From positions 13,057,144-13,121,143 of the forward strand of contig NC_133946.1 of NCBI RefSeq assembly GCF_031877795.1: DNA of 64,000 nucleotides, written 5' to 3'. Each line of letters opens with the position of its first letter. Position 1 is the stretch's first letter. The stretch is from Strix aluco (taxonomy: Eukaryota; Chordata; Aves; Strigiformes; Strigidae). Position numbers and translations under genes: made by a program. Shown in pieces: positions 23,951-62,390 of this stretch. The notes under the pieces are model-generated. The model ran no database searches, was not told the origin of the DNA, and was given only the letters and a program-made list of their open reading frames with translations.

Positions 23951-62390
<38,440 letters not shown>

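Follow-up and report, generated by a model that had tools for sequence, protein, structure and literature searches.

A candidate 24-nt microexon with SRRM4-like splice signals in TRIM66

A 24-nt segment lying in an intron of TRIM66 may be a cassette microexon that is included at a low level or in a restricted set of tissues, a reading to which we give a probability of roughly one in three. Its splice signals and reading frame suit such an exon, but similar strings also occur by chance. That the segment is a microexon of some kind comes a little short of an even bet. Control by SRRM4 as a neural microexon is doubtful, and more doubtful still is a bird- or sauropsid-specific neural microexon under SRRM4 or SRRM3 that would give TRIM66 a brain form lacking in mammals. 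A chance pseudo-exon, in which a T-rich stretch happens to precede an AG and a GTAAGT and is never or hardly spliced, is a somewhat better than even prospect. The analysis covered the window (the whole stretch of 64,000 nt, G000:C16:13057144-13121143) and the genome that contains it, which was searched as 1.41 Gb in 202 contigs.

The TRIM66 locus and its flanking exons

The gene around the candidate is TRIM66, judged by PDB and Pfam matches and by tblastn with a human TRIM66 query. One B-box exon matches the Pfam Trim66 B-box (PF25287, E 1e-18), and a Pfam PHD match was obtained as well. The PHD exons lie just outside the window, and their best PDB match is TRIM66 (E 1.2e-39, versus 9.4e-32 for TRIM33). 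The B-box and the TRIM66 chains in PDB thus uphold the gene name given in the initial annotation. A bromodomain-like exon and a PxVxL motif, here KIPYVRLERLKIC, were recognized by eye (the motif is as in the available text of PMC11891075); the gene therefore combines a Trim66-type B-box, a PxVxL motif, and a PHD-bromodomain. An exon at 23951-24215 encodes a RING finger (Pfam zf-RING_UBOX, E 2.9e-8), and a RING is reported in the longest mouse TRIM66 isoform in the portion of PMC11077763 available.

The intron that holds the candidate spans 52205-61695 (9,491 nt), and both flanking exons are phase 0 at this junction. The upstream coding exon (52043..52204, forward strand) terminates in CCA GTG AGA AAG at 52204, on a codon border, with the donor AAG|GTATCA. 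The downstream coding exon (61696..61968, forward strand) begins with CGT TCA GCA TCC at 61696, again on a codon border, behind an acceptor scoring 15.6, whose own T tract is also long (22 T, 61669-61690). Because both neighbors lie on codon borders and the candidate is 24 nt long, its inclusion would keep the frame. In the tblastn alignment, KPVIPL...PVRK and RSASLSI pair with ...VVRK and HSTSLSI of the human query, which are adjacent in that sequence; the exon is not known to occur in mammals. Elsewhere in the gene, a TRIM66 intron contains pieces of a CR1-like LINE reading frame at 46014-46446 (about 46.0-46.5 kb), as would suit a bird genome.

The candidate segment

The candidate, GAATCGTCCCAGCGGCTCCTCCCA, occupies 59138..59161 on the forward strand between an acceptor AG (59136..59137) and the donor GTAAGT (59162..59167, CCA|GTAAGT), so that all three elements proposed in the initial annotation are in place. 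The order of letters is T21, CCC, TGC, ATT, and AG, then the 24 nt, then GTAAGT. The T tract (59106..59126, forward strand) had been counted as 20 T; the tract is there, and the run counts 21. The UGC triplets noted earlier were also found on the forward strand: one downstream of the pyrimidine tract (59130..59132, 3 nt before the AG) and two before the T tract, of which the first (59094-59096) is part of the RBFOX-type motif TGCATG (59094..59099) and the second follows directly (59100-59102). For alternative micro-exons, the text available from PMC4317164 places TGCATG enrichment downstream, whereas here the motif is upstream. Phase 0 of the candidate reads ESSQRLLP, which, with phase-0 neighbors on either side (borders at 52204 and 61696), bears out the in-frame claim; the remaining two forward frames are open too. 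An internal AG (59148..59149, forward strand), if used, would leave a 12-nt in-frame exon at 59150-59161 (RLLP).

The only full-length match in the genome to the 161-nt region around the candidate is the region itself, and a repeat-derived origin is unsupported because of this. Three further matches of 30 to 33 nt cover the T tract and its flank, in a search that skips simple repeats. The synonymous-codon pattern of the candidate, searched as a degenerate sequence, had 0 matches in prokaryote and viral collections, where vertebrates are not expected.

Neural microexons known to depend on the eMIC domain include the 24-nt beta exon of MEF2, LSD1 E8a, and TAF1 34' (PMC11701043, in the part available). 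The candidate resembles SRRM4/SRRM3 microexons in size (24 nt, against 3 to 27 nt and divisible by three), in being open in phase 0 between phase-0 neighbors, in having a chromatin-regulator gene as its host, and in its UGC placed after the pyrimidine tract and ahead of the AG, which is the SRRM4 layout in the available portions of PMC12626420 and PMC8797185. It differs from them in that its tract is pure U and then CCC rather than UC-rich, with no UCUC repeat, and in that its splicing, neural inclusion, SRRM4 dependence, and conservation are putative. The genome holds two loci for the eMIC protein domain (SRRM_C, PF15230) above the Pfam cutoff.

Splice-site strength and composition

Splice sites were scored with consensus matrices, and exon borders were taken as the best-scoring sites near tblastn blocks, except for the donor at 52204. 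The candidate acceptor (10.5) and donor (7.3) fall within the ranges of 11 other TRIM66 exons (acceptors, 4.2 to 15.6; donors, 3.6 to 9.1), the lowest donor score in the comparison (3.6) being that at 52204. By summed splice score, the candidate takes rank 11 among the 1,181 pairs in the window (both strands, 3 to 51 nt, each site scoring at least 2); plain rank was discarded as proof of an exon, as 10 other window pairs outscore it. For pyrimidines upstream, it leads all AG..GTRAGT pairs of 3 to 51 nt on both strands of the window (22/24; runner-up, 21). In 226 kb of the genome, both strands, 25 pairs of 3 to 27 nt reach a sum of at least 17.8, and 9 of these keep the frame with phase 0 open; the candidate is part of this set, which is enriched for layout matches. 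As evidence for an exon, generic splice grammar is weak here and does not suffice. The best branch-point score at the candidate (1.44) is the lowest among the 12 acceptors compared. Its AG exclusion zone, which contains no A preceded two bases earlier by T, is 47 nt long (18 to 68 nt at the 11 other TRIM66 acceptors). Of the 11 other TRIM66 exons, 2 likewise carry a TGC in the 12 nt that precede the AG.

The candidate has a GC content of 16/24 and two CpG. With criteria picked after it had been seen (at least 15 GC and at least 2 CpG), such 24-mers make up 0.085% of the 9,420 in its own intron, 0.19% of the 27,803 in the 24.2- to 52.0-kb stretch (exons included), and 1.7% of the 2,324 in TRIM66 exons. 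Its phase-0 codon score (8.4) exceeds those of all 5,666 open 24-mers of the intron. However, phase 2 (7.9) and the reverse strand (8.3) come close to the same value, so the score reflects mostly composition rather than frame; even among 24-mers of the coding exons on either side, just 2.3% attain it.

Genome-wide calibration of the layout

The strict layout, defined after the candidate had been seen, consists of T10, at most 8 bases, TGC, two bases, YAG, 3 to 30 bases, and GTRAGT. It gave 42 raw matches in the 1.41 Gb, corresponding to 22 distinct places with the candidate included, or about 0.001 per 64-kb window over both strands. Segment length is divisible by three at 7/22 places, where chance expects 7.3. 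Such lengths would predominate if most places were true neural microexons, as frame preservation is reported for about 90% of microexons under developmental regulation (PMC8187152, in part). A control in which GCT replaced TGC retrieved 25 raw matches, representing 11 distinct places and 2 copies on contig C201, and 4 of the 11 lengths are divisible by three. The one-sided binomial probability for 22 versus 11 places is 0.04. The two C201 matches (G000:C201:7070-7120 and G000:C201:2017822-2017859) repeat ones on contig C15, and C201 may be an alternative haplotype or a duplicate. Because frame keeping is at chance level and the excess over the control is only 2-fold, many of these sites must have arisen by chance, and true microexons account for about half of the 22 places at most. 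A looser poly-T layout (T18) returned 288 raw matches versus 252 for its reversed control, both without collapsing. Reversal of the strict layout as a control (42 versus 12 raw) was set aside, as the reversed pattern contains CGT, which is rare through CpG loss and depresses the count. Nothing was drawn from a UC-tract layout (153 raw versus 38 reversed), which carries the same bias.

The candidate is the GC-richest of the 22 strict-layout matches and the sole one among them with two CpG. One of the 11 GCT-control matches is likewise GC rich (0.61) and also has two CpG; since a control match shares this trait, the odds of a microexon are lowered and those of chance raised.

Among the 21 other strict-layout places, the 6 with a length divisible by three all had their 10-kb flanks read, using an exon finder that is insensitive (it recovered few TRIM66 exons in its own test). 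At four of the six, no gene was recognized by eye within these flanks. The match in CCT3 is false as a microexon because its GTGAGT sits within a normal CCT3 exon. A 15-nt candidate in CHCHD3 (DMEKK; G000:C5:86489560-86489601, minus strand), in contrast, looks like a real microexon from its sequence context. Like the TRIM66 segment, it has the strict layout, keeps the frame, and precedes a phase-0 exon, which lies 1.4 kb downstream; it differs in encoding a charged coiled-coil peptide. It fits a five-residue isoform difference of human CHCHD3. The upstream neighbor exon did not turn up in the 20 kb covered, and no report pairing CHCHD3 with "microexon" was found in the literature searched.

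If about 20 places are due to chance, one-fifth of them fall in sense coding introns, and one-quarter of those keep the frame and are open (both fractions being estimates rather than measurements), about one chance match resembling that in TRIM66 is expected genome-wide. With one expected chance match and one probable true match in CHCHD3, TRIM66 stands at close to even odds ahead of any further evidence. More widely, a string of poly-U, UGC, AG, short exon, and GTRAGT is by itself poor evidence for a microexon in this genome.

Alternative explanations

The results that favor a chance pseudo-exon are the chance-like lengths modulo 3 of the strict-layout places, the closeness of the T18 layout to its reversed control, the rank of the candidate by plain splice score, its branch point as the weakest of 12, and the number of frame-keeping, open pairs among the high-scoring ones in the layout-enriched 226 kb. 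Against chance, a single intron of such length is expected to hold the strict layout on its sense strand only 7e-5 times, a value that shrinks by a factor estimated at about 0.25 for frame and openness, and the GC and CpG content of the candidate is rare in its intron. A cassette microexon gains from splice scores in the range of the gene, the UGC, the GC and CpG content, the SRRM_C loci, and the CHCHD3 precedent. It loses from the chance-like layout counts, the weak branch point, a codon score driven by composition, the control match of like composition, and the TGC near the AG of other TRIM66 exons. The expression of mouse TRIM66, which is primarily in spermatids in the part of PMC11077763 available (where Neuro2A cells provided the positive control for TRIM66 protein), also speaks against it, as does T content: alternative micro-exons are described as poorer in T immediately upstream than constitutive ones are (PMC4317164, in part). 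The microexon proposed in the initial annotation stands in its sequence, gene, frame, and SRRM4-like layout; splicing is possible, and the layout lacks a genome-wide excess of lengths divisible by three.

That same text of PMC4317164 reports raised T content 5 to 20 nt upstream of constitutive micro-exons, which would suit a constitutive or broadly used lineage microexon, independent of SRRM4 and aided by its long U tract through U2AF. The acceptor and donor match many in TRIM66 for strength, but the branch point is weak. The human protein, which is not known to have anything at this junction, also argues against such use, and we regard it as improbable. Still less probable is that the AG is the real acceptor of a longer exon in which GTAAGT is internal, as in the CCT3 match. 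From this acceptor, phase 0 runs through 24 open codons to two stops, and the in-frame donor ahead of them (59192) scores 0.8; a longer exon sharing the acceptor was deemed unlikely for these reasons.

Predicted consequences for TRIM66

Were the cassette microexon real, its long U tract and acceptor would be recognized by U2AF and its GTAAGT donor by U1, and in neurons SRRM4 or SRRM3 would act through the UGC beside the AG and assist in defining so short an exon. If included, the segment would add ESSQRLLP to the linker that separates the coiled coil from the PxVxL/PHD part, with PVRK before it and RSASLS after it. This would shift the basic VRK away from the serine run and split the basic-serine run VRK|RSAS beside the HP1- and histone-reading half of TRIM66. 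The inserted peptide might in turn affect phosphorylation or binding.

Mouse Trim66 isoforms have been ascribed to alternative promoters, according to the available portion of PMC11077763. No paper in the literature searched names both TRIM66 and "microexon" in that spelling. If spliced, the segment would supply a chromatin reader with a microexon, something for which no prior report was found in that literature, and it would constitute a lineage difference that is readily tested. An alternative in-frame donor of the upstream exon, CCA|GTGAGA (52196..52201, forward strand; exon end at 52195), lies 9 nt ahead of the assigned site at 52204 and outscores it (5.6 versus 3.6); if used, it would remove VRK from TRIM66.
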